A stretch of 64,000 bases of DNA, taken from contig CM047430.1 of the NCBI GenBank assembly GCA_026168455.1, positions 3,732,858-3,796,857 on the forward strand, given 5' to 3'. The DNA comes from Theocolax elegans (taxonomy: Eukaryota > Arthropoda > Insecta > Hymenoptera > Cerocephalidae). Below the pieces are notes generated by a model. The model was given only the letters and a program-made list of their open reading frames with translations, searched no databases and was not told the DNA's origin. This document shows positions 9,471 to 60,772 of the stretch, in pieces. Position numbers and translations under genes: made by a program. The first letter of the stretch is position 1, and each line of letters opens with the position of its first letter.

Positions 9471-10529
9471 TTAGATTCTGGAGACCAACGGTAGAGCATT
9501 TTGGATAACTTGCTGCTCTAATTCACACCTGTGCTGCAATATATCTCGGTACAAGCTTTTGAATTGTTCTTGCACGTAAAGGCCTAAACTTTTAATTTTT
9601 GAGTTAAAATATGTAGTAACAATAATGTCACTAATTTCAATGTGTTTCCTCGCAGGAAAATACTGCCCCGGCTGAATTTCTAAAATGAAAAGTCTTGGTT
9701 GGTCAGTTTTAATAAGGCGATATCCGCACACAGTGTGTTCGCTTCTTCTTACTAGTCCGAAACTTATTTTCCCGGTGGAATTTCCAAAGTACGCAGGTGG
9801 ATTCGCACCTTCGGTTACCCTTGTACTTATACCTTCATATAAAGTAATATATTTATCAAAATCACAAACCGATTGAGAGGTAACCTCCCAAAATACGTAA
9901 TTTTCGTCTGCGTCTATGCAATGTCCTGCTGAATATGGGCATCGAGTACCACCTGGTAAAATGAGTTCGTTTTTCGCGATCAATAAATTTGCCGTGGGTT
10001 CGGAGGAGGTTATTTCTAACTTTGCGGTTACCACTGCATTTTTTAATTCGCGACCTGCGTCAATGTACGTTGCACCACTGCACTCCGCCTCGTTATTTAA
10101 ACTACCAGCCAATGTTATTGATCTTCGATTTGTCGCGTTCACGATAATGTCATTAATGATTACCTGGCCTATTTTTATTTGTCCATATTTGATAATTTCG
10201 CGGCACGTGGTTCTATAGAGCGGCTTGATATACGTACTGTCGCCCTGTAAAAAGTCTGCATTGTGCGAATATGCCCCACAATATCGAATTTTTTGTTCTA
10301 CGCGCACTTTACACCGCTGAACAGGAACAGATTTAAATTCGGACAGTTCAAGAAGTTGAATATTTAGCGCTTCTATCTTCGGTTCGTTGTACTCGATGTT
10401 ACATGCACCCACAGCCGTGAGCGACACCGTCGATATGTTCGGAGTCAGCTTGCCACAGTCATAACCGGTGAATGCTTCAGCTTGCATACTTGTAAAAGCA
10501 AAAGTCAACAGAATCTTGAATAGCTTCAT
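9471..10529 (-). pseudogene. Truncated envelope-like glycoprotein of element 1
   Basis: 352 residues from a normal ATG. There is a hydrophobic signal peptide (residues 1-19), then an ectodomain starting Y-D-C-G with about 17 cysteines and several N-glycosylation sequons. It is collinear with residues 1 to about 350 of the 676-residue glycoprotein of element 2 (50544-52574): shared D-C-G start, CSG motif and C-E-(I/L)-E...IQN-(S/A)-L near the break. The membrane-proximal half, transmembrane anchor and tail are missing, so it cannot be membrane-anchored as it stands. The N-terminal pattern resembles glycoproteins of chuvirus type that have been reported in insect LTR elements; that relation is from memory of the family and needs a profile search. 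Confidence 0.75.
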
Positions 10530-10635
10530 TATATATTTTTTTTATTCCTGAAAATTACATGTAAAATTGAAATTACAATAAAAAACTATATTTAAAATAC
10601 AAGCTTTACGGAACACGCAAAAAAAGGTAAAATTT

Positions 10636-12081: not shown

Positions 12082-15000
12082 AAGTACGCGTCACGACTGT
12101 GTATAATATTACGAGCAATGCAAGGTCGATATTGATCTTGACCGTGAGTCTCGTACTCTACAACCTGTTGGTCCTCACCGATCAGCTCACGTGAATCTAC
12201 ATTCATTTCACTGGTTTGAGGATTTGAAGCAGGGTCCATTGGAATGTCAGGAAAGTCAGGGATCGTATCCATAAGGGGTGGATCACGTGTTAGAAAAGGT
12301 AAGGGATTTGAACCAACTGGCGGTTGATTATCGTCTCTTTTGTTGTCAATGCTAGAAGCTGCAGCCCAGCGTTCTAGTTCACCAAATTGAGCGTTTATTG
12401 ATTTTTGTAAAATATCCTGTATTCGCGCTTGTTCTGAAATAGATAATTTGTATTTATCTCGTCCAATAGTTTCTAAGGTTATGTTTGTCAAAATTGTGTC
12501 AAATTCTACCAAATCACGATATGCAGTTGTGTATATGTATTTGTCGTCAACGTCTTGTTGTAACCAGTCAACTTTAACACGTTTACTTTTCTTTTTAATA
12601 TTTTGAGCGACTTTACACAACCAAAAATTTCCCTCCGCATTTCTGACAGCTAGAAATTCTCCATTCTTAAATACATTTTGCATTTCCGTCATATTTTCGA
12701 TGTTGTCAGTTGTGTAATTGTCTACAGTAGGAGTAGCTGTATTCGCATTCGTGAGTTGCGGATCTACACGAATATTTATCTCTTGTTGTTTAACTAGCGA
12801 TTTTTTCGCATTATTGCGAGTATATTTAGGTTTTTTATCTACGTGCTCTACCGAAAATTCTGACTCGCTATCTTCGAGTTCAGATCTTTTTCTGACTATG
12901 TTAACCTCGTCAGCGACATGATTAGCTTCCGGTGGGTTTCTAGATAAAGCGTCAGTAACAAAATTAGTTTTTCCCGGCGTGTATTTTATACTAAAATTAT
13001 ATATATCTGTTAATTTGAAATACCATCGCTTTAGACGAGATGTGGAATCTTTAACATTTTCTAACCATACCAATGGACGATGGTCTGTAAAATAAGTAAA
13101 GTGTCTCCCGCAGATACAATATTTAAACTGTTCAGCGCAAAAAAGCATAGCCAACAATTCCTTTTCGATCGTACTATAGCTGATTTCAGCACTATTTAGG
13201 ACCCTACTAGCATATGCGATTGGCAAATATACGTTTTCTTTTAGCTGTGATAAAACACCTCCTATCGCGAAATCGGATGCATCCGTCGTCACAAAGAAAG
13301 GTTTTTCAAAATCCGGATGTTGTAGAATAGGCTCTTTCAATAGTTTATCTATAAGAGTTTTAAACGCTAAATCCTGATCGTCACTCCATTCAAACTTAAC
13401 GTTTTTTCGTAAAAGAAGTGTTAACGGCCTTGCAATTTTTGAGAAATTAGGTATGTACCGTCGAAAATACCCAGTTAATCCGAGAAATTGACGAATATTT
13501 TTAGGTGATTTAGGTTGCGGAAATTCCTCAGTTGCCCTTAATTTTTCCGGATCAGGCTGAATACCGTTACCCGAAACAAGATGCCCAAGAAATATTACGG
13601 AAGTTTTAAAAAACTGACATTTCGTAGGATTAAGTTTAAGGTTAGTTTTTCTAAGTTTTTTGATTAATTCTATAAAAACTTCCTCTAAATCTTCCATAGT
13701 TTCAGCAAAACAGATTATATCGTCAAAGTACCCAATGCTTCCGCTCACTCTACTATTTTTTAACCCTTTTAGCAGTTTTCGGCCTAAAACTCGATTGACT
13801 AATTCCTGAAACGTTGCTGGTGCAGTTTTGCATCCAAAGCACATACGCTTATATTGATAATGACCAAATGCAGTTGAAAACGCTGTTTTATGTCGATCTT
13901 CCTCTCGTATAGTTATCTGATGAAAACCCGAATACATGTCGACAACTATGAACCAAATCGCTCCCCCTAATTGTTCGAGCATGTGTTGTATAAGCGGAAT
14001 CGGATGTGCAAAATCTTTAGTTTTTTCATTTAATTTACGAAAATCTACTACGACACGCCACTGCGGTTTTCCCTGATTATCGTTTCGTTTTCTAACTACC
14101 CAAAGTGGATTATTATACGGCGAATCGCTTTCCTCAATAATACCCGCTTGAAGCATTTTTTCTACCTGACTATGTACCTCTTGCTGTAATGCTTCAGGAA
14201 TCGGATACTGTCGAATGTTTACCGGTATATCGTCGGTCGTCTCAATTTTATGTTCTACTAAATTGGTTGTAGAAAGTGGTTCACCTTGAAGATGAAAAAT
14301 GTCAGCTGTTTTTTCGATAAGGTTTTTAAGTCGATCTACCTGTACGTCAGTTAAGTGCTCTTTTGGAATTTCGTCCATTAACTCATCAAGCCTAGTAGTC
14401 GAACTAACCGAACGTATTTTAAAATGATTGTTACTACTGCTAGTTGATAGGTCTTTTCTTATCGGTTCGATTGATTCGGGCACGTAAAGTTCAGTTAATA
14501 AATTAACGTCTACAATATCGGTACCTATAGCGTCTTCAATTTCAGAATACATTTTTACGTCATAGATCGAACCTGTAATTTTATTATCCCCAAACGTATC
14601 GTATTCGCGAATAAAATCTATGTCTTCTAAGAGGTCGAGACAACAAAGTAATTCAAAATTTCCATCGTTATGAGAGTATGCACATTTTCCTATATTTTCG
14701 TCATCTTCATCGAGTTTATTAAACATATTCCGATTTTCTAGACCACCCTCGGTCGTACACGAATTGTTTTTGCTATTCGCGGAACTATTGACAAGGACAT
14801 CTACACCGGCCTGAGCTTGCGTCATGGACCCTCTCAAAGCAGCTGCCACAGTAGACCCTACATAGTCCTCCAGCACTATAGACTCATTTACACCCTCCTC
14901 GGCACTGTGCACCGAACTAACACTAGGACTGGATCCCCACACACGATTAACATAATAATCTCTCATATACGTTGGATTAAAATCGATTAAATCATTTAAA

Positions 15001-15695
15001 GCGCGATCAAATTTTTCCTGATCAAATTCACGAGGAACATTCTCCACAGAACTAGTTAACGATTCTACCGTTTGGTTATGATTTAAGATTTCGTTACATT
15101 TTTTGTACTCCCCCATTGGATGCATAAAAACGTCGCCAATTTTAATCTCGACTTCTTTTGCGTTCTTATTTTCGACCTCTAAAATTACATAGCCATGTCG
15201 ATTTTCAGCTACAGTGTCACCCGCTTTTATTCCCTTTTCTGACAGTCTTATTGGGCTTATATATCCTCGACTACCTTGAAAGTTATTAGCTATTTTAAAC
15301 CGTACATCCGTTTTACTACGCGGCGGCAAAACATGTGTTCGAACTACGTTAATAAAAGGCAAAGTAACGTTATCAAAAAAAAGTAATTTATTCGCAAAAT
15401 CAACTGAAGCATTTCTTTCATTACAAAACCTTGATCCTATTAAAACATCGCATTTTAAAGGAAAAGATTCATCAACTACAACAAATTCTGTTAAAGTGTG
15501 ATTTATCAGAATTTTACAAATTCCTAATGATTTTATATCATTTCCCGAAATCCCTCTTAAAAACGGTTTATTATTTTCAAACACTAGCACGTCTCCTTTT
15601 AGTGCGGTAATTCGTACTAAATTCGGTTGAGCACCTGAATCAATCATCGCATCACATTTATCATTAGTAAAATCATATGATTCTAAAGTAACCAT
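12063..15695 (-). CDS. Protease-RT-RNase H part of Pol, element 1
   Basis: 1210 residues. An aspartic protease active site DSGA lies near residue 19. A linker of about 400 residues follows. Reverse transcriptase spans about residues 455-700, with VVDFRKLN, a TAPATFQ block and the catalytic motif YFDD (usual form YVDD or YLDD). RNase H has TTDAS, EKELLA, TDHRPL and DALSR. A charged spacer of about 250 residues leads to the frameshift before integrase. Pol is -1 relative to gag; its first ATG (15695) lies just past the gag stop (15716), and the -1 frame is open for about 110 nt upstream. I found no in-phase canonical slippery heptamer in that overlap, unlike element 2. Confidence 0.9.
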   Translation of the reverse strand: MVTLESYDFTNDKCDAMIDSGAQPNLVRITALKGDVLVFENNKPFLRGISGNDIKSLGICKILINHTLTEFVVVDESFPLKCDVLIGSRFCNERNASVDFANKLLFFDNVTLPFINVVRTHVLPPRSKTDVRFKIANNFQGSRGYISPIRLSEKGIKAGDTVAENRHGYVILEVENKNAKEVEIKIGDVFMHPMGEYKKCNEILNHNQTVESLTSSVENVPREFDQEKFDRALNDLIDFNPTYMRDYYVNRVWGSSPSVSSVHSAEEGVNESIVLEDYVGSTVAAALRGSMTQAQAGVDVLVNSSANSKNNSCTTEGGLENRNMFNKLDEDDENIGKCAYSHNDGNFELLCCLDLLEDIDFIREYDTFGDNKITGSIYDVKMYSEIEDAIGTDIVDVNLLTELYVPESIEPIRKDLSTSSSNNHFKIRSVSSTTRLDELMDEIPKEHLTDVQVDRLKNLIEKTADIFHLQGEPLSTTNLVEHKIETTDDIPVNIRQYPIPEALQQEVHSQVEKMLQAGIIEESDSPYNNPLWVVRKRNDNQGKPQWRVVVDFRKLNEKTKDFAHPIPLIQHMLEQLGGAIWFIVVDMYSGFHQITIREEDRHKTAFSTAFGHYQYKRMCFGCKTAPATFQELVNRVLGRKLLKGLKNSRVSGSIGYFDDIICFAETMEDLEEVFIELIKKLRKTNLKLNPTKCQFFKTSVIFLGHLVSGNGIQPDPEKLRATEEFPQPKSPKNIRQFLGLTGYFRRYIPNFSKIARPLTLLLRKNVKFEWSDDQDLAFKTLIDKLLKEPILQHPDFEKPFFVTTDASDFAIGGVLSQLKENVYLPIAYASRVLNSAEISYSTIEKELLAMLFCAEQFKYCICGRHFTYFTDHRPLVWLENVKDSTSRLKRWYFKLTDIYNFSIKYTPGKTNFVTDALSRNPPEANHVADEVNIVRKRSELEDSESEFSVEHVDKKPKYTRNNAKKSLVKQQEINIRVDPQLTNANTATPTVDNYTTDNIENMTEMQNVFKNGEFLAVRNAEGNFWLCKVAQNIKKKSKRVKVDWLQQDVDDKYIYTTAYRDLVEFDTILTNITLETIGRDKYKLSISEQARIQDILQKSINAQFGELERWAAASSIDNKRDDNQPPVGSNPLPFLTRDPPLMDTIPDFPDIPMDPASNPQTSEMNVDSRELIGEDQQVVEYETHGQDQYRPCIARNIIHSRDAYLWQKII

Positions 15696-15715
15696 CGGAA
15701 TCGTATCTTCCTCTC

Positions 15716-16999
15716 TTAAGCGGATGACGTAGACGGCTGGTTGCGAATCGCGTCTACTGGGCGCGCGGTCACCTCCGCACGGGTTGCACCCGAAACCTGT
15801 ACGGGGAGTTCGTTCCCCTTCTTATCTTCCACCTGACAATAGCGGCGAATGTGTCCCATTTTTCCGCATTTATTGCATTTATAATCTCGGAATTTATTAA
15901 AGTTATTCGGGCCCTTGTTTTGACCGTCCCATCGGTCTCGATTAAATGGAGCGTTACGTTTAAACTGTTGTTGCGCGCTCACTATCTGATTTCCTCTAGT
16001 ACCGTCGTCATTAGAAACATTATTTACTAAGTATCGATTATTATTATTATTTCCGTTTCGCGAGTCACGATTAGCATTGTCGGACCTGGGCGTTTGATTT
16101 TCACCGGATCGAGGAAAATTTCGTCCTTGATAGATAAAGCCGTGTTTCTCACGATCTCGCTCGAATTGTTTGCTTACAAAAATCGCGTTGTCAACTACTT
16201 GAGATAGTGTTAAACCTGCAGCCGGTGCAAGGCGTGACCGAAACGTGGGAGATAAACCGTCCCTTAAACCATCAATGACCTCGCGTTCAATCTCTTGAAG
16301 TTCGTAAACCGTAAGATCGTCGTCCGTATCTAACCGTTTCCTATTAATTATCGCGTCCATATAATCCACTAATGATTCATCCCGTTTTTTAACAATTGCA
16401 TCTAATTTTCCACGCAAATTATTTAAAGTTTCGGTGGGCGAGAAAACTCGTTTTAGTTTATCAACAAAATCACGTAAAGACTCAAATTTAAACTCTTCAA
16501 TTAAATTAAATGTGCTATCGGTCATCTTAACTTTCAATAAATTAATTACGTCTTTTTCAATAAATTTAGGCGTTAGATTCGCAACACGTTTACAACTACG
16601 GATAAACTGTAATAAATTCGTTCCATCAAACGTCGGAACATTCGCGATTGCGTTCTTAATCGCGATCATTGTTAAACTATTATTATACGATTCCGTCGGG
16701 TAAGTTTTTGATTCACTTGTTACGTTATCTTGCGTCTCTTTTTCAGGTTTCGACACCGGCGTCGAGGAACGAAGGTTACGAAAACGTACACGCATTTCTT
16801 CTATGTCCTTATCTGTTTCATTATTTGTATGCGTTTGATCGAGAAATTTTGAAGTCACATCCGGCACGTCAGGAAATTTTACTGTTCTATCTCCGCTATT
16901 CGCGATTTTATCCGTGAAATATTTGTCGGATTCACACTGGCTCGTGTCCGCGGGACCGTCCATCGGGTTAGTTTTTCGTAATTTTAAGATCGGCTTCAA
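15716..16999 (-). CDS. Gag (main part), element 1
   Basis: 427 codons from the first in-frame TTG. The first ATG gives a start at Met13, and the reading frame probably continues from the N-terminal ORF at 16968-17225. A central helical capsid-like region spans about residues 110-290 (VPTFDGTNLLQF...). An Asn/Arg-rich stretch follows, then a single CCHC zinc knuckle C-N-K-C-G-K-M-G-H-I-R-R-Y-C near residue 375. This is the nucleic-acid-binding structural protein that forms the particle. One knuckle is normal for Ty3/gypsy Gag, in contrast to the eleven in element 2. Confidence 0.85.
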   Translation of the reverse strand: MKPILKLRKTNPMDGPADTSQCESDKYFTDKIANSGDRTVKFPDVPDVTSKFLDQTHTNNETDKDIEEMRVRFRNLRSSTPVSKPEKETQDNVTSESKTYPTESYNNSLTMIAIKNAIANVPTFDGTNLLQFIRSCKRVANLTPKFIEKDVINLLKVKMTDSTFNLIEEFKFESLRDFVDKLKRVFSPTETLNNLRGKLDAIVKKRDESLVDYMDAIINRKRLDTDDDLTVYELQEIEREVIDGLRDGLSPTFRSRLAPAAGLTLSQVVDNAIFVSKQFERDREKHGFIYQGRNFPRSGENQTPRSDNANRDSRNGNNNNNRYLVNNVSNDDGTRGNQIVSAQQQFKRNAPFNRDRWDGQNKGPNNFNKFRDYKCNKCGKMGHIRRYCQVEDKKGNELPVQVSGATRAEVTARPVDAIRNQPSTSSA

Positions 17000-17225
17000 C
17001 GTCGAGGCGTCGTTTTGTTTCGTTTATCAATTCGCGAGCGGCGGCGTCGGCACGCGCTCGTTCAATTTCAAGTTGTAACGCGATATCCCTTTGAGCTTTT
17101 TCACATTCGGCTACGAGTTTTTCACGTTCTTCCAATTCACTTAAAAACTCAGCTAACTTAGCAGGATCCATATTTTTAAATTCTTCACTCATTATTCTCG
17201 TGAAAACTTGGTTAAATGAAGTCAC
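16968..17225 (-). CDS. N-terminal coiled-coil segment of Gag, element 1
   Basis: 85 residues, rich in E, A, K and R with heptad-like spacing (residues about 20-80), typical of an N-terminal Gag coiled coil. It overlaps the main gag ORF by 32 nt in another frame. The most economical reading is one gag gene broken by an indel near 16970-17000. A small separate protein is possible but less likely. The likely initiator is the ATG at residue 1 or residue 12 (M-S-E-E-F). Confidence 0.6.
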   Translation of the reverse strand: MTSFNQVFTRIMSEEFKNMDPAKLAEFLSELEEREKLVAECEKAQRDIALQLEIERARADAAARELINETKRRLDVEADLKITKN

Positions 17226-17829: not shown

Positions 17830-18500
17830 TGTTATAGAAAGGATTCTCCGTTCGGAGCTTTCCCTCGCTATAATGATTTTTTTGGAAGGACCCGTGTGTC
17901 CTCGATCGACCTCCTTGGTGATGGGCAGGGAGCCACCAGATCAGCGTAGACGAGCTGTTACCCTGTACCCCTGCGGATCCTTACGTTTTTTCCTCTTTTT
18001 CTTATAAAAGCAAAGATTTAAAATGACGAGTGGTAGGATAGTGGCTACAGGTATAAGGAGACTGATTGATGCAGATAAGAAATGAGAAGAGAGCGTGTAA
18101 ATTTGAACTGGATTTAATTGATTATAATTAAACGTCTTTACTCTACCGAATGCGCCCGCGGACTGGTAACGTCGCATGTACAAAAATCGCGACGAACACC
18201 TTCGAAACTCTGGTCCTACGGTAGGATCTAGACGCGAACTCAGCAATTGCCGAAAGTCTCGGATTCCTCGCTAGTCTATGCATTGTCAGCCCGGCGAGTT
18301 CCGTTCGTCAAGCAACGAAGCTGCACAGCTATATTTATCGTTTTATTCATTTTACACAAAAAATTAATATATATATATTCGTTACACAAAATATAATTAA
18401 TACAAACTACAAAGAAACATAAGCAAGCGTACATTTACTGGTTTACTAGAACATTAAATTTAAACAATAATATTTAGTACAAATATGATCATACATAACA
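17830..18500 (-). repeat. Probable 5' LTR of element 1 (single copy)
   Basis: Bounded by TGTTATAG at 17830 and TAACA ending at 18500, giving the 5-bp inverted ends TGTTA...TAACA also seen in the element 2 LTRs. The length of 671 bp is close to the 652 bp of element 2. The left boundary is supported by the adjacent primer-site-like TGGTGAC; the right boundary is a guess because there is no second LTR. A 101-codon minus ORF (17941-18246) inside has a hydrophobic stretch then KKKRKKRK (see findings). Confidence 0.45.
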
Positions 18501-18502
18501 TT

Positions 18503-18714
18503 ACTATTTCAGCAGATAAGACTGCCAAAGTTTGGAAAACAACAGACTTTTCCGAGGTGCAAGTTCTACAGCATGAAGTTAACGATGGGTTTGGGATGTA
18601 GCTTTCAGTGCTGATTCGCAATACATTTTTACTGCTTCGTCGGATGGTGTTGCAAGATTAGAAAAAGTAGTTTCTGCTCTTGCCTTCAGAGATGAAGTGC
18701 TTCCGACAAGTTAA
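18503..18714 (+). pseudogene. Lst8: 3' fragment of Lst8 (mLST8/GbetaL), WD40 subunit of TOR complexes
   Basis: Translation gives ISADKTAKVWKTTDFS, then after a 1-base deletion near 18586 [13 protein letters not shown] and ASSDGVARL, then a gap of about 20 codons, then [10 protein letters not shown] and a stop. This matches the last WD40 repeats of mLST8, the beta-propeller subunit of TORC1 and TORC2 that contacts the TOR kinase domain. The frameshift and the deletion make it non-functional. It sits directly beside the probable LTR of element 1, and a TTTCAG precedes the match, so a last exon copied at DNA level is as likely as a processed copy. A functional Lst8 should lie elsewhere. Confidence 0.8.
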
Positions 18715-49434: not shown

Positions 49435-50086
49435 TGTTATGTCCTGAATACTAAAAGCTTAATCTAAACAATGACGCCTGTCGCTTAGCCAGGACTCGAA
49501 CCTAGGGAATGTTTAGGAAAACTAAGAGTATGTTTTACAGAACATAAACGTATTATCTAGTGGCAGGAAAGAAGGAGAGCTCTTTCCACACTAGTATTAA
49601 TCAATTATTTTTATATAAATTGAGTACTTACTCAGTATTTCTTCTCTTGAAGATCTTTGCTTCCTTGTATTTTAAGTAAATGAATAATTAACACTTTGTT
49701 TATAATTGATTTAAATATATTGTATAATTTATTAATTTTGCACTTTTACAATATTCTTGATTTCTTTATAATTAGTACTCTCAGTCTTAAACACTTGAGA
49801 GACGAGCCGACGCGTGATTCGAACTGCCTAATTGTAGGTCAACATCTTCAATTTATTGTAAAAGAATGTTTATAAATTATAAAATTAATTTACAAATTTT
49901 AGTCGAATATTACCATGATCTCATTTAACAAATCGCTGAGTTTGCATTTTGACTCTTCGATTCATTGCTAATATCCAGGTCATTTACGAAACTCTACGTT
50001 CGCATTCTTTAAGCTGCAGTTGTTAGTTACGACTTGTTGTCGATTAAAAATTACAAAATTAAAAGTATACGTCTTATGACGTAACA
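49435..50086 (-). repeat. 3' LTR of element 2 (652 bp)
   Basis: In the plus sense, starts TGTTATGTCC and ends TATGACGTAACA; inverted ends TGTTA/TAACA. It carries GGTTCGAGTCC on the minus strand at 49492-49502, a perfect match to the RNA polymerase III B-box consensus and part of a tRNA T-arm-like stem-loop (CTAGG-TTCGAGT-CCTGG). The left neighbour is satellite ending GATA. Confidence 0.93.
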
Positions 50087-50543
50087 CCTGGGGGGCCAGA
50101 CGTTGCATATCGGAACGATATCAACTTCCTTTTAGTATTAGCAATCAATCGATTACATGATTTTAGGACACACTTTCATGTATGTATTGAGTCGACCACC
50201 TGTGCTACAATACAAACAAAACTTCAAACACGTACAAGCGAACATTGACCTTGTTTTGCTTCCGCGCGCACTTCTAAACAAATTGCATAAATCGACAACG
50301 CTACTCCATCCATTGTGAATTAATATTGTATATTGAATTAATATTATGTATTAATTATGTAATATTGAATTAATATCGCTACTCCATCTGTTGTGAATTA
50401 ATATTCACTATCCTCCCCGCTTAAGTATTGTACACTATTTTGTGAAAACATTTAAGGAAAGAAAAAAAAAAAAAAAAATAGTGTGCAATTTTCTTTCTTT
50501 TTATTTTTATATTTTTTTTTTTTATTTTTTATTTATTTTTTTT
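50087..50543 (-). other. Untranslated region between glycoprotein ORF and 3' LTR
   Basis: Next to the LTR is CCTGGGGGGCCAG (plus sense); no purine-rich tract in the element sense is obvious. A motif CGCTACTCCATC-GTTGTGAATTAATATT occurs twice (about 50299 and 50379). Poly-A/T tracts lie at 50459-50545. No gene. Confidence 0.5.
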
Positions 50544-52574
50544 TTATACATTTAACGAAAAAATATTATGATTTTTTGAATGTGAATTTGACATATTTTT
50601 ACCTGATAGAGTAATTGTAGGATTAATTTTTGATGGGAATATTGATGGTGGTCTATTTGGGATTGGTGGAGGTTGCATGGGAGATGAAATCTTCGGTATA
50701 ACTTTAATTTCTTTTAGTTCCACTTCTTCTGTTATTTCTGATTTCTTGTTATTCTCTTCATAATTTTCTTTATTTAATGTTGTCAATAAATGAGTAATTG
50801 AACTGAACACTGCTCCAAAAAGGTGAAGTGACCATCCATATATAGTATGTAGAGTATAGCCTCGAATTATTGTGTCAATGATTAATTTTATAACATGTAA
50901 AATTATTAGAATCATAATGAACATTGAGGAAAATGAGCCCCAAGTTGTCAATTTTCTAATAATTAGTTGCCATGTACTTTCTGCTATGTGTTTTAAAGTA
51001 TTTTCTGTAAACATATTAGTTGTAGATTCATCTGAATTTTGTTGTCCCGTCATTTCTCTTGTAATTATATTTAATAATGAAGCTTTTTCGAGAGGAAACA
51101 TGAGTTGTTGTTGTAGTTGGTCCAGGTCCGTTTGAGAATATACTCCACTAGTAGCCAAGGAATTAACTGTTTCATAGGTCCACCCAATCTGTGTATTAGG
51201 TTTAAACACATTAGGAGGTATTGTTTTTGTTGGTGTTGGCAAAAATTTTATCCATTCGTCTCCAACTTTATAAAAAGTAGGAACTATAGAATTACAATCA
51301 ACTTGAATTCCACGTTTTACCAAAATATGTGTTTTTGGTGTAAGGAAATAAGTTTCATTTCCTGATGTAACAGGTAGATGATTATAACATTCCTTAGTGT
51401 GTAATAATTTTACCTCTTTTGGAGTACATTTTATCAAATAAACTGCTTCTCCCGCTAGTTTTGATATATAACCTGGTTTTTTCATAATGTTATATGCAAA
51501 TTCATCTGGGGATAAGGTAGCAATGGATAAGGAATTTTGTATTGTTTTTCTTTCAATTTCACATTTTTGAGTTAATAGGTCTATATATATATTACCAAAT
51601 TGATTCCTTAAATGTTTTTCTACATAAACAAATTTTGAATTTACATAAGTAAATAAATCTAAATGTACACTTGCTTTATTACTAACAATGTCATTTTCAA
51701 AATATAATCTATTTATATTATTATTTTTTTCTAATATTAATAATTTTGGATGTTCAGTTCGGGTAAATTCGCGATTACAATTTGTGATTTTTTCCTTTGC
51801 CGCTAATGCAAAAGTAATTTCATTGGTATTTAACGTATAAGTAATTTCATTATTATTTCCGTTAGTAAACTTCTTTGCAAAACCTTTATATAAAACATCG
51901 TACTTATTTTTAAAACAATCATCTGTTGGTAAAATATCCCAAAAAGTATAACCCCCTTCCATATCAAGACAATGTTTGTCTGAAAATTTACATACAGTAC
52001 CCGAGCTTAATCTTAACTTATCATTATTTAAATTTACTTGTGCATTGTTTCTTATTAATGTAATTTTGATTGTACCGTGTACAAATACCTTATTCCATGA
52101 TCCAAAATTATCTGTATATGACTCTCCTGAACATGAGTTTCCTTCTGCACTTCCCGCGAAATCTATTCCTTTTGTTGTAGTTGAATTTATTTTTAAATCG
52201 GCAATAGTATGTTTATTGTCATACTTAAAAACTCCTGTTTCTTGAATAAATTTACATTTTTCGTGACTTATATCGTAGATGTACTCTTGTTCTGCATTTT
52301 CCGTTGGAATCAAATGTCCAAAAATTCCACATTTGAAAATTGTTCTATGTATAATTATTTTACATTGAATAATTTTAGTGTTTTTAAATTCTGCTATTTG
52401 TAGTAATTCTATTGGAACCTCTGTTGAATTGATTTGTGCATTATGGAAATCACATTCGCCTGAATCAAGTAATGAAAATGTCGTAATATTTGGCATGGTT
52501 GTCCCACAATCAAACCCAATAATCCCATGACAAATTTTTAAGATTGTCGAAAAAATAACTATTTGTTTAATCAT
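50544..52574 (-). CDS. Envelope-like glycoprotein of element 2 (chuvirus-type)
   Basis: 676 residues from ATG. Signal peptide about 1-19 (hydrophobic, then GFDCG). Ectodomain about 20-545 with over 20 cysteines and several N-x-S/T sequons (N30, N49, N131 and N406 among them). Transmembrane helix about 549-570 (MFIMILIILHVIKLII). Long cytoplasmic tail of about 105 residues with a proline-rich run (PMQPPPIPNRPP). The D-C-G...L-L-D-x-G-E-C-D start resembles glycoproteins of chuviruses rather than the usual baculovirus-F-like Env of errantiviruses; this assignment is from family knowledge and not tested. It would act at the cell or particle surface. The ORF starts 38 nt after the pol stop and is probably expressed from a spliced mRNA. 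Confidence 0.82.
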   Translation of the reverse strand: MIKQIVIFSTILKICHGIIGFDCGTTMPNITTFSLLDSGECDFHNAQINSTEVPIELLQIAEFKNTKIIQCKIIIHRTIFKCGIFGHLIPTENAEQEYIYDISHEKCKFIQETGVFKYDNKHTIADLKINSTTTKGIDFAGSAEGNSCSGESYTDNFGSWNKVFVHGTIKITLIRNNAQVNLNNDKLRLSSGTVCKFSDKHCLDMEGGYTFWDILPTDDCFKNKYDVLYKGFAKKFTNGNNNEITYTLNTNEITFALAAKEKITNCNREFTRTEHPKLLILEKNNNINRLYFENDIVSNKASVHLDLFTYVNSKFVYVEKHLRNQFGNIYIDLLTQKCEIERKTIQNSLSIATLSPDEFAYNIMKKPGYISKLAGEAVYLIKCTPKEVKLLHTKECYNHLPVTSGNETYFLTPKTHILVKRGIQVDCNSIVPTFYKVGDEWIKFLPTPTKTIPPNVFKPNTQIGWTYETVNSLATSGVYSQTDLDQLQQQLMFPLEKASLLNIITREMTGQQNSDESTTNMFTENTLKHIAESTWQLIIRKLTTWGSFSSMFIMILIILHVIKLIIDTIIRGYTLHTIYGWSLHLFGAVFSSITHLLTTLNKENYEENNKKSEITEEVELKEIKVIPKISSPMQPPPIPNRPPSIFPSKINPTITLSGKNMSNSHSKNHNIFSLNV

Positions 52575-52612
52575 TATTGATAGACCTAAAACAGTAAAAT
52601 TATATTAATACA

Positions 52613-55600
52613 TTATTTATTTTTTTCATGCATAAATAATTTATTAGGATGGACTGTTTTTGGTTTTCCTTTATAATCTATGACTATATTACCATTCTCA
52701 TGTACTTTTAAAATCTCAAAAGGTCCAAGATAATGATCTTTTTCTAATTTGCCTGGTTTAGGTTGTTTAGTGAACCAAACCTTATCTTTTATTTCAAATT
52801 GTACTGGATTTACGAATCTGTCATAATATTGTTTTGATTTCTCTTTAGATAATATTAAATTTTCTCGTGCTAATTTTGAAATTTCATCCATATTTAAAAC
52901 TAATTTTTCAAGATAACCTTTAAAAGTGGGTAATTGTTCACTTTTCCTTAAAGGTTCATGTGATGGTAGTCTTGGAGGAAAACCAAAAACTATTTGAAAT
53001 GGTGTATACATATGGCTAGTATGAACGTTAACATTATAATAAAATTGAGCTAATTCAATTAATTCATCCCATTCAATTTTCTTTGACGAAAAATTTCTTA
53101 AATACTCCATTAAAGGTGCATGTGCTCTTTCTAAATTTCCATTTGCCCATGGAGTAAAGGACGTTGTTTCTATTTTTGAAAATTTAAATCTACGAGCTAT
53201 TGCTTTCATAATTTTCCCAGTAAAATTACCAGCTCTATCAGTCAATAATAATTTAGGAAACCCAAAAATCAACAAGTATCGTTTTATAAAAGCATTAGCT
53301 ACAGATTCTGCAGTTTGATCTTGTAAAGGTACAGCTATTAAGTATTTTGAAAATTGATCTTGAATCGTTAAGATATATTTATTATTATTTTTAGTAATAT
53401 TCAGTGGCCCTACAATGTCCATAGCGACTTTATCAAGAGATTTAAATGGTGTATCCGTTATTAACATAGGTTGTCTAACTCTTTTTCTTTTTAATTTATT
53501 TCTATTACAATCATCGCAATTTTTAATTCTCTTTTGTATATCTTTCTTCAAATTTTCCCAAAAATACATAGTTTTAATTGTATTGTAAGTTTTTGTTATT
53601 CCTGCATGGCCTCCTAAATTAGAAGAATGATACATATCAAATATTTTATCTCTTCCATCTAATGGTACGAAACGTATTTCATTTTTACATATTATTATAT
53701 TAATTTGTGTATCTGCGAATATATCTTTTAATATTTCTTCAATTTCAATCCATTCAATATTAATTATTTCTATATCTTTTGATATACTAAAACTTAAATA
53801 ATTTTTCTGCAATAATATGTTACTTAATAATTTAAATAAATTAATCAAATTTATTTTTACATTTATATATGATTCTGCAATATCCAAACATAATACAAAC
53901 AATTTTTTATTGTCGATCTTAATTATTTCAATTTCATTTTTACTCAAAGATTTATTTATCTCAATTTGTTTATCATTAATTAATAACTCAGTATTATTAT
54001 CGAACGATTTTCTTCCTTTCGAAATAATATGAACTATATTATCTTTCCTTAAATTAATAGAATCACGAGAGTAATTTATATTTTTACATTCTTTAAATAT
54101 TTTTAAATGTTTATCCACTTGTGTAGAACTACCATTTATAATCAGTTTATTATCTTTTTTATGAGCTTGTTTAACTTCTTTCTTTTTATTCTCTAATTCT
54201 TGTATAGGTTCAGAAATTTTTACTTTTTCCAATTGAATTTGTTTAGCTTTTTGAGCTCTTGTTGTAACACTTATAATTGCACTTTCTATAGGATTTCTGG
54301 ACAAAGCATCAGCATTTACGTTATTTTTTCCTGCTTTATAGACTACCTCATAATCGTATCCCATTAATTTAAAACGCCATTTTTGAACTCTAGTGTTATT
54401 ATCAGCCATTTTTAATGATAACAAAGGTTTATGATCTAAAATTATTACAAACTTATTTGCAAAAATATATTTATTGAATGTTTTAATAGCAAACATTACA
54501 GCTAATGCTTCTTTTTCATACGTACAATAATTTTTTTCGGCACCTTTGATTACTCGAGACGCGTATGCTATCGGTCTATCTTCATTAATTTTCCCTTGTG
54601 ATAAAATAGCCCCTAATGCATACTTTGAAGCATCAGTAGTTATTAAAAAAGGTTTATCAAAATCTGGAAACTGTAAAACAGGTGCAGTACATAACGCAGT
54701 CTTTAATTTATCAAAAGCCTCTTGTATTTCTGTATTCCAAATAAATTTTACTTCTTTTTGTAATAAAGTCGTTAAGGGTTTAGCTATTTCTGCAAAATTT
54801 TTAATAAATCGTCTATAATAACCTGCTAAGCCTAAAAATTCTCTCACATTTTTAATATTTTTTGGACGAGGAAATTGTTTTATAGCAACTATTTTCTTCT
54901 CATCTGTTCTTATACCATCTTTACTTATTATATGGCCTAAAAATTCAATTTCTTTCTGAAAAAATTTACATTTACTTGTTTCAATTTTTAAACCTGCTTC
55001 CTTTAATTTTTTTACTACTATATTTAACCTCTGTATATGCTCTTCTATAGTTTCGGAAAAAATAATTACATCATCCATGTATACAAAACAAATTGTTCCA
55101 ATTAAATTTTCTAAAACTCTATTCATTACTCTTTGAAATGTTCTAGGTGAGTTTATTAAACCAAAAGGTAATACTTTAAACTCAAATCTTCCTAGTGGAT
55201 GAATACTAAACGCTGTTTTATGAATATCTTTTTCTTTTACTCTAATTTGATGGAATCCTGATACCATATCAATAGAACTAAATATTTTATTATTTTTTCC
55301 CATTTCATCAAAAATTTCTGTTATATTAGGTAACATATAGGGATCAGGAATGGTTTTTGCATTTAATTTTCTATAATCAATAACAAGCCTCCATTTCTTT
55401 TTACCATTACTCGCTAATGTCTTTTTTTCTACTAACCAAGTTGGTGCATTAAACGCGCTTTTTGAATTTCTTATAAGATCATTATTAATCAATTTTTTCG
55501 TTTCTTCAACTGCAATTTCTTTTAATTTATAAGGTAATGGGAACTGTTTAACGTATATAGGTTTGTCATCAATTAAATTTATTTCATGCTCTTCTATTTT

Positions 55601-57154
55601 ACATAAACCAATTTTTTCACCTTCTAACCAAAATGACTCTCTATTTTCCAAAATAAAAGTTTGAACTGTTTCTTTATCCTCATTCGATAAGTGATTTAAA
55701 TTTACTTTTTCTAGCAATTTTCTTTCTTTACTTAAATTATTTAATTTATTTTCTTCATCTTCTTTTGTAAAATAAATTGACCCCATATGTATTATTTCAC
55801 TCTCATAAGGTAATATTGAAACGTTAGTATTAATAATATCATTATAAAAGCCCTCAATATCTAATGAAATATAATTAATTTGATTTTTAAAATATGTATC
55901 CTCTCTATCAATTAAATTATTGTTTTTTAATGTTTCTTCAAAAATAAGGTAATTATTAATAATATATTCTTCTTCTTTAATATCATTTTTATTTAACATT
56001 GTATTATTTAAATTTCCTAAAAACTGTTCAATATTTATTTCTTTATTTTGTAAAAAATCTACAAGATTTACATAATTATCAACTTTTGATTGATCACTTA
56101 CCCACGAATCTATTACACTTTCATCATTATTTTTTTCAGTTAAAATTTGCGTTTTTGTATTATTTACAGTATCAATTAATTTTGTTGTTTCAATATTTTC
56201 ATAAAAATCAATTAAATCTTTATTTGAAAAATCAATTAATTCTTTATCTGAAAAATCAATTAAATCTTCATTTAAAACATCGATTAAATCTTGATTCGAA
56301 AAGTCTATTAAATCATTACTTTTTCCAAAATTACCTTCAGCTACTTCTTGAAATTTATTTTGATTTATTTCTTCACAAGTTTTATCATGAATATTTTCAA
56401 TTATATTGAAAAATTTTAAAAAATCTTCATTTATTGTACTTTGTATGCACATACTACTTTCTAAATTTTCTGTAAATTCTCTTTTTCTTATATTATTCTC
56501 ATAATCTTTATCTTGTATTACTTCGTTACAATTATCTTTTATAATATGTACAGAATTTTCTTTACTTTCTATAGACTGCAGTTTATTCGATTGAATTTTT
56601 AATTTATTGTTGTTAATTTCTAAATAGCCTTTATCTAACCGAAGTTTTTGTTGCATAAGAATTTTTATACCTATTATGCCATCATAAGGTATTGAAAAAT
56701 CTTCAGGAGCTACGTGGAATTCAAAATTAATATTGTTTATTGCTAAATTTATAGTACCCAAAGTTTTAATAGCATTATCTGTTATGCCAGATATTAAAAT
56801 TCTTTCAGTATTGTTTATTAAATTAAATGGAATATTATCTTTTTTTATAAGATTAATTTGTGCTCCACTGTCAATTAAAAATTTACATTTTTTGTTTGGT
56901 ATTAAATCATCAATTTCAATGTGTTGTAATAAATTCTCAATTTTAAAGACATAATTTCGTAAGTTATCCTGATTTACTAACGAATTATTACTCATATTAT
57001 GAAACGATTGGTCAATAAACTCATGTTTTGTTGACATTTGATATTGTAGGTCACCGAGTGTCTTGTCTTTATTATCTCTCCCTATGCACTCGAACCTGGA
57101 AGAGTGTTCTCGTTTCCCGAAAATTTTTGCTGACTGTCTCGATATTTTACGCAA
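52613..57154 (-). CDS. Pol polyprotein of element 2 (PR-RT-RNaseH-IN)
   Basis: 1513 codons; the first codon in the open frame is TTG, so translation probably comes by -1 shift from gag. Protease active site DSGA at about residues 95-98. Spacer of about 400 residues with an eight-residue LIDFS-type repeat (about 278-320). RT with VIDYRKLN, a SPRTFQ block and YMDD at about 691. RNase H with TTDASKYALG, YEKEALA, LDHKPL and ADALSR. Integrase with an HHCC finger (HSSNLGGH...CDDC) and D1246, D1306 and E1342, the D-x59-D-x35-E spacing. The C-terminus has the GPFEILKVH and VHPNKLF module. No stop or frameshift. It performs maturation, cDNA synthesis and integration. Confidence 0.95.
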   Translation of the reverse strand: MRKISRQSAKIFGKREHSSRFECIGRDNKDKTLGDLQYQMSTKHEFIDQSFHNMSNNSLVNQDNLRNYVFKIENLLQHIEIDDLIPNKKCKFLIDSGAQINLIKKDNIPFNLINNTERILISGITDNAIKTLGTINLAINNINFEFHVAPEDFSIPYDGIIGIKILMQQKLRLDKGYLEINNNKLKIQSNKLQSIESKENSVHIIKDNCNEVIQDKDYENNIRKREFTENLESSMCIQSTINEDFLKFFNIIENIHDKTCEEINQNKFQEVAEGNFGKSNDLIDFSNQDLIDVLNEDLIDFSDKELIDFSNKDLIDFYENIETTKLIDTVNNTKTQILTEKNNDESVIDSWVSDQSKVDNYVNLVDFLQNKEINIEQFLGNLNNTMLNKNDIKEEEYIINNYLIFEETLKNNNLIDREDTYFKNQINYISLDIEGFYNDIINTNVSILPYESEIIHMGSIYFTKEDEENKLNNLSKERKLLEKVNLNHLSNEDKETVQTFILENRESFWLEGEKIGLCKIEEHEINLIDDKPIYVKQFPLPYKLKEIAVEETKKLINNDLIRNSKSAFNAPTWLVEKKTLASNGKKKWRLVIDYRKLNAKTIPDPYMLPNITEIFDEMGKNNKIFSSIDMVSGFHQIRVKEKDIHKTAFSIHPLGRFEFKVLPFGLINSPRTFQRVMNRVLENLIGTICFVYMDDVIIFSETIEEHIQRLNIVVKKLKEAGLKIETSKCKFFQKEIEFLGHIISKDGIRTDEKKIVAIKQFPRPKNIKNVREFLGLAGYYRRFIKNFAEIAKPLTTLLQKEVKFIWNTEIQEAFDKLKTALCTAPVLQFPDFDKPFLITTDASKYALGAILSQGKINEDRPIAYASRVIKGAEKNYCTYEKEALAVMFAIKTFNKYIFANKFVIILDHKPLLSLKMADNNTRVQKWRFKLMGYDYEVVYKAGKNNVNADALSRNPIESAIISVTTRAQKAKQIQLEKVKISEPIQELENKKKEVKQAHKKDNKLIINGSSTQVDKHLKIFKECKNINYSRDSINLRKDNIVHIISKGRKSFDNNTELLINDKQIEINKSLSKNEIEIIKIDNKKLFVLCLDIAESYINVKINLINLFKLLSNILLQKNYLSFSISKDIEIINIEWIEIEEILKDIFADTQINIIICKNEIRFVPLDGRDKIFDMYHSSNLGGHAGITKTYNTIKTMYFWENLKKDIQKRIKNCDDCNRNKLKRKRVRQPMLITDTPFKSLDKVAMDIVGPLNITKNNNKYILTIQDQFSKYLIAVPLQDQTAESVANAFIKRYLLIFGFPKLLLTDRAGNFTGKIMKAIARRFKFSKIETTSFTPWANGNLERAHAPLMEYLRNFSSKKIEWDELIELAQFYYNVNVHTSHMYTPFQIVFGFPPRLPSHEPLRKSEQLPTFKGYLEKLVLNMDEISKLARENLILSKEKSKQYYDRFVNPVQFEIKDKVWFTKQPKPGKLEKDHYLGPFEILKVHENGNIVIDYKGKPKTVHPNKLFMHEKNK

Positions 57155-59094
57155 TTTTCAGCTGTATGCCCGATTGCTTTGCAATTTGAACATAATTCAT
57201 CTACACTACTTTCCAAAAGTTTCAGCATACTACAATTATCAATCAAATGATCAAAATTTTTACAAAATGAACATTGTTTTTTAGTTTGTTTATAATTTTT
57301 TAATGCTTGTAATTTCCAACATTCATCGATTACATGACCTTTAAACTTGCAATAGTCACAAACCTTTCCTTGAGACATATTTCTATTTATTTTATTTGTG
57401 TTATTATTAAAAATTTTATTTTGAAAATTACTATTCATATTTCTCGAATTTACTTGTTGATTATAATTTTGCGAAGATTTAAATTGTGCAACCATTAGTT
57501 TTATCTGTTCACATTCAGTTGATAAATGTCCTTCATTACAAATTGAACAAAAGCTAATTTTTTCATTTTTACAATTTTTACTTATATGTCCCTTACCATT
57601 ACATTTGAGGCAAGTCATTTCTGGACAATTTTCTAAAGAATGATTTATTTTTCCACAAAAACCACAATTTTCTACTATAATTTTCTTTTGACCTGAACAA
57701 ACATTAGGATTATGTCCGGAAAGACCACATTTCCAACAAATTATATATTCTGAAATAAAAGGACATTGATTTACTGTATGCGAAATTTCTTGACAATATT
57801 GACAATAACTATATTGATCTTTATTATATTTACAAGCACTTATTGAATGATTAGGTTGACTGCAATGTTTACAAGTTAAATTTATTTTATTTGTGACAAC
57901 TCTACAATTATTTGAAAAATGATCTGTTCCTTTGCAATAGACACAGCCTGCTAAAGGACAAAATAATGCTTCATGTTGAATACCATGGCAAATTTGACAA
58001 GTTAAAATTTTTTCCGTTTCTGATTTAAAAAAACTATTATTTGCAGATAAACAATTACTATCTCTTAAGCTGTCTTGTTTCAAAATTAAATTTTCTATTT
58101 CTATAGCTTTTATAGATATTGATGATAAATCATTATGTTCCCCAACTCGGATATTTATTTCAAATTTTAAACCGTCTTTAAAATATTTTAAAGCATCTTT
58201 ATCAACAGTATCATTAAAATTTTTAATACTAGTATTCGTTTCTCCCGATTGTGCTTTTTTAATTTCTTTCATTTGTTTTACCAAATCTGTAATTCTATTA
58301 GTGTAACTAACCACAGACTCATTTTTACCTTGTATAATTTGAGATAGTTTGCCATATAGTTCATATAAATTATTTTTTGAAGGATATAATTTTCTTATAA
58401 TAGAAACTAAATCTTCAATACTTGTAATATTAGAATTACCCAAAGCCTTATATGCTTCTCCTTTTAACTTAATTTTTAATACCTTAATTAAATTTTCTTC
58501 ATCAATATCTGCAATAATACTTTTAGCCTGTTTTAATTTTTCTATATATTCTGTTGGTGTTGGATTATGCCCATCAAATTCAGGCACTAAATTCGCAACA
58601 TCCTTTAAAGATAATTTGAGTGCATTCTCTTGAGTCATATTTATGTTTTTAAAATCAAAATTTCCCAGATTAAGTGAACTATTCTCTACTTGATTTGGTG
58701 TTTCAATATCTATTAAATTAGTTACTTCTACTTCTTCAGAATTATTCAATAAAAGACTTCTTTGGTTTAATAAACCTTCAATATCTGTATAATCGTTAAA
58801 TCCAGTCGAATTTGTTATATCCCAAATTGTATCATCTAATGCAATAGCTGAATCTTTGTAAATACTAGAATTTTGTTCTAATTCTAAAGAAGTTGATGGT
58901 TTAGGATGGTTAATTTCTGATGAAGATTCAACGTTATTTTGTTCTGTTGGTAAATTAAAACTAACAGTTTTTGAAGGAGGAGAACGTATTAATTTTGAAC
59001 TCTTTTGAAAAGGATTTAATATTTGTTCTTTTAAAATAGGATTTTCTTTAACTAACCCTCTGGTTAATGGTTTATTATTTTCTGTATTTGACAT
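57082..59094 (-). CDS. Gag of element 2 with eleven CCHC zinc knuckles
   Basis: 670 residues from ATG. N-terminal disordered Ser/Asn/Pro-rich region to about 150 with a clathrin-box-like LIDIE near 127-131. Helical capsid-like region about 160-345 (LVPEFDGHNPTPTEYIEKLK...). Then eleven CCHC knuckles: ten C-x2-C-x4-H-x4-C at 366, 384, 408, 431, 453, 477, 495, 579, 608 and 635, plus one C-x2-C-x3-H-x4-C variant at 516. Ty3/gypsy Gags normally have one or two. The last 24 codons overlap pol in the -1 frame. It assembles the particle and binds RNA; eight knuckles are contiguous, and the last three follow an Asn-rich spacer. Confidence 0.94.
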   Translation of the reverse strand: MSNTENNKPLTRGLVKENPILKEQILNPFQKSSKLIRSPPSKTVSFNLPTEQNNVESSSEINHPKPSTSLELEQNSSIYKDSAIALDDTIWDITNSTGFNDYTDIEGLLNQRSLLLNNSEEVEVTNLIDIETPNQVENSSLNLGNFDFKNINMTQENALKLSLKDVANLVPEFDGHNPTPTEYIEKLKQAKSIIADIDEENLIKVLKIKLKGEAYKALGNSNITSIEDLVSIIRKLYPSKNNLYELYGKLSQIIQGKNESVVSYTNRITDLVKQMKEIKKAQSGETNTSIKNFNDTVDKDALKYFKDGLKFEINIRVGEHNDLSSISIKAIEIENLILKQDSLRDSNCLSANNSFFKSETEKILTCQICHGIQHEALFCPLAGCVYCKGTDHFSNNCRVVTNKINLTCKHCSQPNHSISACKYNKDQYSYCQYCQEISHTVNQCPFISEYIICWKCGLSGHNPNVCSGQKKIIVENCGFCGKINHSLENCPEMTCLKCNGKGHISKNCKNEKISFCSICNEGHLSTECEQIKLMVAQFKSSQNYNQQVNSRNMNSNFQNKIFNNNTNKINRNMSQGKVCDYCKFKGHVIDECWKLQALKNYKQTKKQCSFCKNFDHLIDNCSMLKLLESSVDELCSNCKAIGHTAENCVKYRDSQQKFSGNENTLPGSSA
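57112..57118 (-). promoter_or_regulatory. Probable -1 ribosomal frameshift site between gag and pol
   Basis: The minus strand reads G-GGA-AAC in gag phase, a canonical X-XXY-YYZ heptamer, 12 codons before the gag stop. A -1 slip there enters the pol frame exactly (GGG-AAA-CGA). Downstream, CGAGTG...CACTCG (six perfect pairs, about 57057-57095) and CACTC...GAGTG can pair and could form the stimulatory structure. No ATG opens pol in this overlap, which fits fusion expression. Confidence 0.75.
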
Positions 59095-59434
59095 TTGATT
59101 TTATGCATTATAAATTTCTTACAAATTTTACAAATAGTAGTTTTATTAATAATAATATTTATAAACAAAAATTATGATTTTTTATGCTTTAATGATGTAA
59201 GATGCCAAGTCCAATTTTGGGAATTGAACCTGACTCAACTTAAAATAATATATATCCTGTTAAATTAAATTAATTTATTTAAAAAAGAAAAATCTGTGTA
59301 AGTTATTTATCTTTTTCCAAAATTATTTATTCATACTTCTATAAAAAAAAATTTTATACTTAATTACTTTCTTACAAAGCTTGACTTAAAACCAATCCAG
59401 GTTAAAAAAAAATGCTTAGGTCGTATAAATTTAT

Positions 59435-59442
59435 TATATAAG
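59435..59442 (+). promoter_or_regulatory. TATA-like box of the antisense gene
   Basis: TATATAAG, 78 nt before the ATG at 59520. The position fits a 5' UTR of about 50 nt. AT-rich context makes chance occurrence possible. Confidence 0.4.
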
Positions 59443-59519
59443 TCGTATATGCTTCTGCAAGAATATTAATCACAACTTTGATATAAAAAACACCACATCT
59501 AGAAGAAATAAATACTACA

Positions 59520-59814
59520 ATGAATTCAGTAAGTTAAAATTATTTCAATTTTTTCTATTCTCTTTATCAATGTTTATCTTCTCTTTTTTTAGTCGACTTC
59601 CATAAATCAATCAACTATTTCTCAATTAGTAAAAAATGTGAATTTAACTTCCGATCCTGTGTACCAGATCGATTGTCATATTGAAGACTGGGATTATGAA
59701 AATTTTGTACCTCAATGTCAATGGTGTAACAACAAAATTGACACTCCACCACAATTAAAAAGAACCATGAAAGTCAATTTAAATAATAATCAAATTATTG
59801 TAACATTTGAATAA
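59520..59814 (+). CDS. Small spliced antisense accessory gene in retroelement 2
   Basis: Exon 1 is ATG-AAT-TCA (59520-59528) in good context (ACAATGA). A 64-nt intron has a consensus donor GTAAGTT and a T-rich acceptor TTTTTTTAG (59529-59592). Exon 2 is 59593-59814, ending TAA overlapping an AATAAA (59810-59815). The product has 76 residues, acidic in the middle (IDCHIEDWDYENF), with a CxxC motif (PQCQWCNNK), a basic patch (LKRTMK) and a C-terminal beta-like NNNQIIVTFE. No family recognised. It runs opposite to gag-pol-env. The composition is much less repetitive than the surroundings, and all three codon positions look coding. No counterpart was found in element 1. Function unknown. Confidence 0.65.
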
Positions 59815-60120
59815 ATATTTTGACTTATGTATTTTTTCCTTAACTCGAATGAAAAAAAAATTTTTTTTTTTATTTATTCCCAAGCTAATCTTAGTCAAAA
59901 TTACTGATATGTTTCAATACAATGAAATGTATAAACGAAAATAAGTTATTATATATTTTTAATAGAGTTATTTATACTTCTATTGTTAATAGAATTATTT
60001 ATATTTTTAATAAAGTTATTTATACCGAAATCATTTGTTACGGTTTTTAAATTATTGGAACCCTTCTTCCAAAAAAAAAAAGAATTTGTTTAATAATAGT
60101 GTGTTTGTACCGGAACCATT

Positions 60121-60772
60121 TGTTATGTCCTGAATACTAAAAGCTTAATCTAAACAATGACGCCTGTCGCTTAGCCAGGACTCGAACCTAGGGAATGTTT
60201 AGGAAAACTAAGAGTATGTTTTACAGAACATAAACGTATTATCTAGTGGCAGGAAAGAAGGAGAGCTCTTTCCACACTAGTATTAATCAATTATTTTTAT
60301 ATAAATTGAGTACTTACTCAGTATTTCTTCTCTTGAAGATCTTTGCTTCCTTGTATTTTAAGTAAATGAATAATTAACACTTTGTTTATAATTGATTTAA
60401 ATATATTGTATAATTTATTAATTTTGCACTTTTACAATATTCTTGATTTCCTTATAATTAGTACTCTCAGTCTTAAACACTTGAGAGACGAGCCGACGCG
60501 TGATTCGAACTGCCTAATTGTAGGTCAACATCTTCAATTTATTGTAAAAGAATGTTTATAAATTATAAAATTAATTTACAAATTTTAGTCGAATATTACC
60601 ATGATCTCATTTAACAAATCGCTGAGTTTGCATTTTGACTCTTCGATTCATTGCTAATATCCAGGTCATTTACGAAACTCTACGTTCGCATTCTTTAAGC
60701 TGCAGTTGTTAGTTACGACTTGTTGTCGATTAAAAATTACAAAATTAAAAGTATACGTCTTATGACGTAACA
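60121..60772 (-). repeat. 5' LTR of element 2 (652 bp)
   Basis: Same length and ends as the left LTR; I saw only one difference in scanning (TTTCCTTATAAT against TTTCTTTATAAT). Same B-box at 60178-60188. Near-identical LTRs indicate recent insertion. Confidence 0.93.

Follow-up and report, generated by a model that had tools for sequence, protein, structure and literature searches.

A predicted spliced antisense gene in the leader of an env-bearing Ty3-type retroelement of Theocolax elegans

Results

We analyzed a window of 64,000 nucleotides from contig CM047430.1 of Theocolax elegans (assembly GCA_026168455.1). On its minus strand, the window carries a Ty3-type, env-bearing long terminal repeat (LTR) element, here called e2 (49435..60772), and on the plus strand, within the e2 leader and opposite to gag, pol and env, lies a small gene of 2 exons and 76 codons (59520..59814). 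A preliminary description of this DNA had proposed such a spliced antisense gene, and its parts are indeed present. A TATA-like box, TATATAAG, can be read directly at 59435..59442. Exon 1 (59520..59528), ATGAATTCA, consists of the codons ATG AAT TCA (M N S), with the ATG at 59520, and is followed by a GT-AG intron of 64 nt (59529..59592) that begins with GTAAGT and ends with TTAG; the coordinates of both were checked. Exon 2 (59593..59814) has 73 codons, among them those for a conserved Cys and a Cys-x2-Cys, and a TAA stop at 59812-59814, which is overlapped by an AATAAA polyadenylation (poly(A)) signal at 59810..59815, again by direct reading. Because the first ATG inside exon 2 is codon 59 of 73, the start codon of exon 2 would be supplied by splicing. 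The predicted product is an acidic protein of 76 amino acids (8.9 kDa, pI 4.82).

A chance open reading frame was considered and rejected on shuffles, codon usage and the conservation described below. The other five frames over the gene are closed by 3-9 stops each (3-7 in the minus-strand frames). An open run of 73 codons between two stops is by itself frequent in shuffles (211 of 2000); a spliced frame of at least 76 amino acids appeared in only 1 of 3000 dinucleotide-preserving shuffles of the leader. Codon usage resembles that of the element's genes, scoring +23.9 bits under a model trained on the element's own genes, a score that none of 2000 base shuffles equaled; the other frames score from -10.6 to +9.1 bits. 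From its start to its poly(A) site, the predicted antisense RNA would span only the middle of the leader. The earlier suggestion of an antisense RNA lying over the primer site is not supported, since the poly(A) signal would end the predicted transcript about 280 nt short of the presumed site (about 60118, adjoining the 5' LTR and placed without a tRNA match).

Copies of the gene were sought in one 658-Mb genome, that of the window, and all copies reported here come from it. The DNA search gave 41 matches, with 40 of 83 candidates scored, and the copy counts are lower bounds. At least 26 near-identical copies (99-100%) exist, the window's included. GTAAGT and TTAG are present in every one of these 26, and the spliced frame is intact in 21, the other five having frameshifts. 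Ten older relatives of the element were also found (L009-L017 and L020; L009 and L011 overlap and are near-duplicates). Element leader or LTR DNA outside the antisense gene is matched in all ten, and gag, 58-84% identical in amino acids, stands on the expected side in seven (L009, L010, L012, L013, L016, L017 and L020). Ten rows could be aligned across the 5' part of the gene, namely e2, eight of the ten older copies and L049, a distant leader copy, and all ten keep TATATAA, the ATG and the GTAAG donor. Upstream of the gene, L015 carries different DNA and L017 is without the part that holds the TATA box. The acceptor of the older copies lies 3 nt downstream of that of the e2 family, which preserves the frame. 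AATAAA is found in most of 23 aligned rows; it is not in L019, nor in the truncated L016 and L018. The leader of L049 is about 70% similar and keeps the TATA box, ATG, GTAAG and AG acceptor, followed by a truncated exon 2.

The preliminary description had named copy alignment, the ratio of nonsynonymous to synonymous substitution rates (dN/dS) and intron conservation as checks on the gene, and all of these turned out in its favor: besides the 21 intact frames, donor and acceptor are kept, and dN/dS of exon 2 between lineages is low, at 0.11-0.55. Substitutions at codon positions 1/2/3 number 5/5/14 between e2 and L009 (dN/dS 0.21), 5/5/17 between e2 and L012 (0.18), 12/14/27 between e2 and L021 (0.40), 15/13/33 between e2 and L048 (0.20), and 16/9/31 between L012 and L048 (0.11). 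Against all 17 partners, e2 gives dN/dS of 0.18-0.55, the maximum belonging to a broken unit of the L022 array. Over six between-lineage pairs, the single-pair binomial value for the third-position excess runs from 0.038 to 0.0006; these pairwise tests share ancestry, and their values cannot be multiplied. The LTR served as a control, with one best stretch from each of seven older copies (of ten) and its positions likewise counted in threes: these seven copies have 36/40/89 substitutions in exon 2 versus 158/113/163 in the LTR, where the classes are uneven, though the third alone is not favored. Along the leader, conservation is 87.9% in exon 2, 88.4% in the 5' untranslated region with exon 1, and 78.8-83.2% in the other blocks; it is similar at the gag start (89.7%) and in the LTR (87.1%). 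From the pattern of substitutions among copies, purifying, protein-level selection on the antisense open frame of e2 is shown.

At the protein level, Cys28 is the same in every row of an alignment of ten exon-2 pieces and His29 in nearly every row, and the eight pieces long enough to include Cys42 and Cys45 all have both; the Cys/His positions vary in some broken copies outside this alignment. Such conserved residues would suit a small metal site. The product has no Pfam match at E up to 10. A resemblance of exon 2 to the OB-fold of RPA found no support in Pfam, PDB or structure prediction and was dropped.

The distribution of the gene among related elements was assessed with a 180-residue reverse transcriptase (RT) query, for which 151 matches were listed, 150 of 8733 candidates having been scored. 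We compared 79 of the 151 (the 72 left out are 43-53% identical) with 57 exon-2 places, of which 56 come from the 92 matches of an exon-2 genome search at E up to 1 and one from the DNA search; most matches in an array at C2:78.69-78.71 Mb and split matches were left out of the 57. Exon 2 lies within 16 kb of the RT in 12 of 19 matches at 99-100% identity and in 7 of 21 at 60-93%, and in none of the 39 sister-family RT matches checked at 49-53%. Two sister-family stretches, L053 and L054, examined at the expected leader place, have no match to the leader or the product. As far as tested, the antisense gene thus appears confined to one element lineage.

Exon 2 also recurs in other repeats, together with the intron end and the 3' flank and without exon 1 and promoter. 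These exon-2-only copies are L019, L021, L047, L048, the array at C2:78.69-78.71 Mb and seven more copies of the L048 type. In the array (L022, L044, L045), exon-2 copies have been amplified in tandem with other sequence. Older splits among the exon-2-only copies keep the third-position excess (11/5/20 between L021 and L048). The recent split of L021 and L047 shows 5/2/1, with eight changed amino acids and no silent change, and L021 versus L022 gives a dN/dS of 1.63. Exon 2 is open in L021, L047 and L048, and all eight further copies inspected are broken. By their substitutions and frames, the exon-2-only copies look like decaying fragments of once-working genes. In a short, unrooted tree built on about 36 initial codons, L049 and L051 lie closer to e2 (0.25 and 0.28) than to the exon-2-only copies (0.33-0.42).

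Several carriers of these exon-2-only copies were considered. PolB-type DNA, which we take to be Maverick/Polinton-like, adjoins three of them (L042/L021, L047 and L052; PF03175 on the L042 piece). A PolB element as the home of the gene was rejected: by eye, only 2 of 150 PolB matches (834 candidates) are found no more than a few kb from an exon-2 place, and a third PolB piece beside exon 2, in L042, is outside these 150. The DNA_pol_B_2-type family is itself very abundant, with 834 first-look candidates, and open frames of about 1300 amino acids occur in many of its copies. A gag-only LTR element beside L021 was rejected as carrier since the exon-2 copy lies outside its LTRs; L042 5427-8818 holds a short element whose LTRs are 98.8% identical to each other and enclose one gag-like frame of 692 amino acids and no pol match. 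For a Penelope-like carrier, a hammerhead-like motif was found by pattern in L019 only, and Rfam gave nothing in L019, L021 and L022.

The preliminary description had also called the element carrying the gene intact, and e2 bears this out. Its LTRs, at 60121..60772 (5', ends TG...CA) and 49435..50086 (3'), are both 652 bp long and differ by 1 mismatch, and each is flanked on its outer side by GATA, the target site duplication (TSD). All further parts are likewise on the minus strand. The leader of about 1 kb (59101..60120) separates the 5' LTR from gag (57082..59094), an open frame with the zinc knuckle PF00098. The pol open frame (52613..57157) contains Ty3-type protease, RT, RNase H and integrase domains by Pfam, and the env open frame (50544..52604) matches Monjiviricetes_fusion, PF24664, at E 3.4e-204. 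The class Monjiviricetes includes the chuviruses, hence our term "chuvirus-like" for the env of e2. The LTRs, the TSD, gag and the pol order protease-RT-RNase H-integrase place e2 in the Metaviridae (Ty3/Gypsy), an assignment that rests on Pfam domains and on RT identities within one genome.

The element sits within an array of a 59-nt satellite. ARAGORN and Rfam found no tRNA or known structured RNA in the e2 leader. Two motifs of the form GGTTCRANTCC, which we take to be B-box-like, lie on the e2 sense strand at window 59210-59245 (leader) and 60170-60200 (LTR), where ARAGORN and Rfam are equally null; by eye, L049 and L051 contain similar ones. Directly before the 3' LTR, at window 50087-50100, the sense strand reads CCCCCCAGG and has no purine-rich tract, which is unusual for such elements. 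Another Ty3-type element, element 1 of the window (9474-17023), has pol pieces 31-38% identical to the e2 pol, and PF24664 env genes occur in two different Ty3-type elements, at window 50544-52604 (full length, LTRs with 1 mismatch) and 9471-10541. Element 1 was dropped as an informative relative: a search of the window with the antisense product gives only the product itself (next match E 0.88). At window 18500-18680, there is a fragment that, by eye, resembles an LST8-type WD40 host gene.

Discussion

Based on these findings, we propose that this antisense gene encodes an accessory protein particular to one lineage of Ty3-type, env-bearing LTR elements, a reading to which we assign a probability of about 0.72. 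In the mechanism that we envisage, the TATA promoter at 59435 would drive a short antisense mRNA, removal of the 64-nt intron would join the start codon to exon 2, and polyadenylation would occur just past the stop. An antisense intron persists through reverse transcription, and both the intron and the poly(A) signal of this gene would survive it because their antisense orientation makes them unreadable in the sense genomic RNA. By analogy with the antisense proteins of deltaretroviruses, the 76-residue product would most likely act in trans, as a small regulator or a host-interacting accessory protein.

Several points weigh against this proposal. It was reached by comparing the DNA of copies from one genome, and the shared ancestry of the pairwise tests and the uneven classes of the LTR control noted above must be kept in mind. 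The product has no convincing protein relative in Pfam, PDB or large databases; the best PDB match, a C2H2 zinc-finger protein at E 0.015, was judged to be chance. Structure prediction of the 76-residue product, suggested in the preliminary description as a further check, returned no confident fold (mean pLDDT, the predicted local distance difference test score, of 38.5 and 46.3). The whole spliced frame survives in only one of the ten older copies, L012. In L009, exon 2 is open, but the third codon of exon 1 is TGA, a stop (likewise in L011), and the remaining older copies carry stops, indels or missing parts. There are also elements with near-identical RT that lack the gene. For each of the seven such RT matches at 99-100% identity, we inspected the DNA where the leader should lie: L055, L058 and L061 show no proper leader, and a single deletion of about 408 nt (e2 59351-59758), common to L056, L057, L059 and L060, takes the promoter, exon 1, the intron and most of exon 2. 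Two of these four have an open frame of 1514 amino acids at the RT match. Since the variant with this deletion still multiplied, the antisense gene is not strictly needed in cis. The preliminary description had counted full-length copies without the frame, and a lack of conservation, as evidence against the gene; conservation was found, and the part about copies was borne out to the extent that some pol-intact copies lack the gene through one shared deletion.

The history of the two variants can be sketched. Identity among the four deletion copies is 97.8-98.7%, compared with 98.9-99.6% between the window and seven copies that carry the gene. By this comparison, the spread of the gene-minus variant would be somewhat older, and the gene-plus family would be the youngest. 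We offer only tentatively, as an idea more doubtful than our proposal itself, that an env-bearing Ty3 element independently evolved an arrangement like that of HBZ, with a spliced antisense gene, its own promoter in the leader and a trans-acting protein, and that, aided by gene-plus copies, the gene-minus variant was able to multiply at a time when the gene-plus family was not yet the youngest.

Other explanations have to be set beside the accessory protein gene. The stretch might work as a non-coding antisense RNA with a silencing or tuning effect on the element, the open frame being incidental. With a TATA box and a poly(A) signal both conserved, a short antisense RNA over the leader would indeed be expected, and antisense RNAs have been described for some LTR elements in the sections of a review that bear on them (PMC7264820). 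However, an RNA role does not predict a third-position excess and a low dN/dS in one frame only, and we consider it unlikely as the explanation of the frame; RNA and protein roles could coexist, as is described for HBZ RNA in the relevant part of PMC10186651. Similarly improbable, in our judgment, is that exon 2 is a passenger, brought into the leader from another repeat where it was once useful and now merely inherited. That exon 2 recurs without exon 1 in other repeats, three times beside PolB-type DNA, would fit such an origin. Yet it is those copies that have lost constraint in recent pairs, with eight further ones broken, whereas the e2 family has retained the frame, promoter and donor.

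Capture of a host gene, which the preliminary description had raised, possibly as a mimic of a host factor, might account for the spliced structure and for a protein unlike the usual proteins of such elements. However, no cellular parent was recognized in the exon-2 search of the 658-Mb genome (places at E up to 1, contexts viewed without gene prediction), where a parent lost from the genome or too diverged would escape, and with no convincing relative in the databases either, we regard capture as very improbable. We give just as little credence to a sense-strand leader signal for packaging, translation or dimerization, of the kind that retroviral leaders generally carry, since it is a single antisense frame whose codons are constrained, the frames of the minus strand have 3-7 stops, and the variant of the four deletion copies multiplied without the region.

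Returning to the antisense accessory protein gene, its significance lies in part in the rarity of such genes: antisense protein genes of retroelements are few and of unclear origin, and most known antisense retroelement genes belong to a small number of mammalian retroviruses and to certain plant elements. Here, one genome holds a young family along with several older families and a naturally occurring gene-minus variant, so that RNA and copy data can be used to ask whether such a gene affects how an endogenous retrovirus spreads or is silenced. The predicted gene most recalls HBZ and APH of deltaretroviruses, which, as outlined in PMC10186651, are expressed from spliced antisense mRNAs and encode small accessory proteins opposite to gag-pol-env; in e2, this is predicted from DNA. 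The promoter of HBZ and APH is placed in the 3' LTR in the same account; e2 has a conserved TATA box, a putative promoter, in the leader between gag and the 5' LTR. Unlike HBZ, a bZIP protein, the e2 antisense product matches no Pfam model, so that by sequence it does not belong to the HBZ family.

Like aORF-3R of the plant elements Grande, RIRE2 and Retand, and like fungal Boty, for which the pertinent sections of PMC7264820 describe an antisense frame conserved in most family copies, with no clear homologues and no assigned function, the e2 frame is a conserved one; the antisense open reading frame of Grande is said there to have its own promoter. Unlike those elements, e2 has its gene in the 5' leader, and a tiny first exon supplies the start; the word "intron" is absent from the text of that review. 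Among insects, micropia of Drosophila hydei is likewise an LTR element with an antisense promoter and transcription, according to the passage on it in PMC7264820, which describes these antisense RNAs as lacking coding capacity; for e2, a coding transcript is predicted. In titles and abstract openings of the open-licence literature, we recognized no LTR element from an insect whose leader carries a spliced antisense gene for a protein. With Anakin, a BEL/Pao element, e2 shares an env that is chuvirus-like or chuvirus-derived, as told in portions of PMC10084718 and PMC12440569, but the pol of e2 has Ty3-type domains. The survey PMC10084718, in which the word "antisense" has 0 occurrences, gives in its relevant portion no clear evidence of Gypsy elements capturing chuvirus-like glycoproteins. 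The element e2 combines an antisense gene and a chuvirus-like env in one element.
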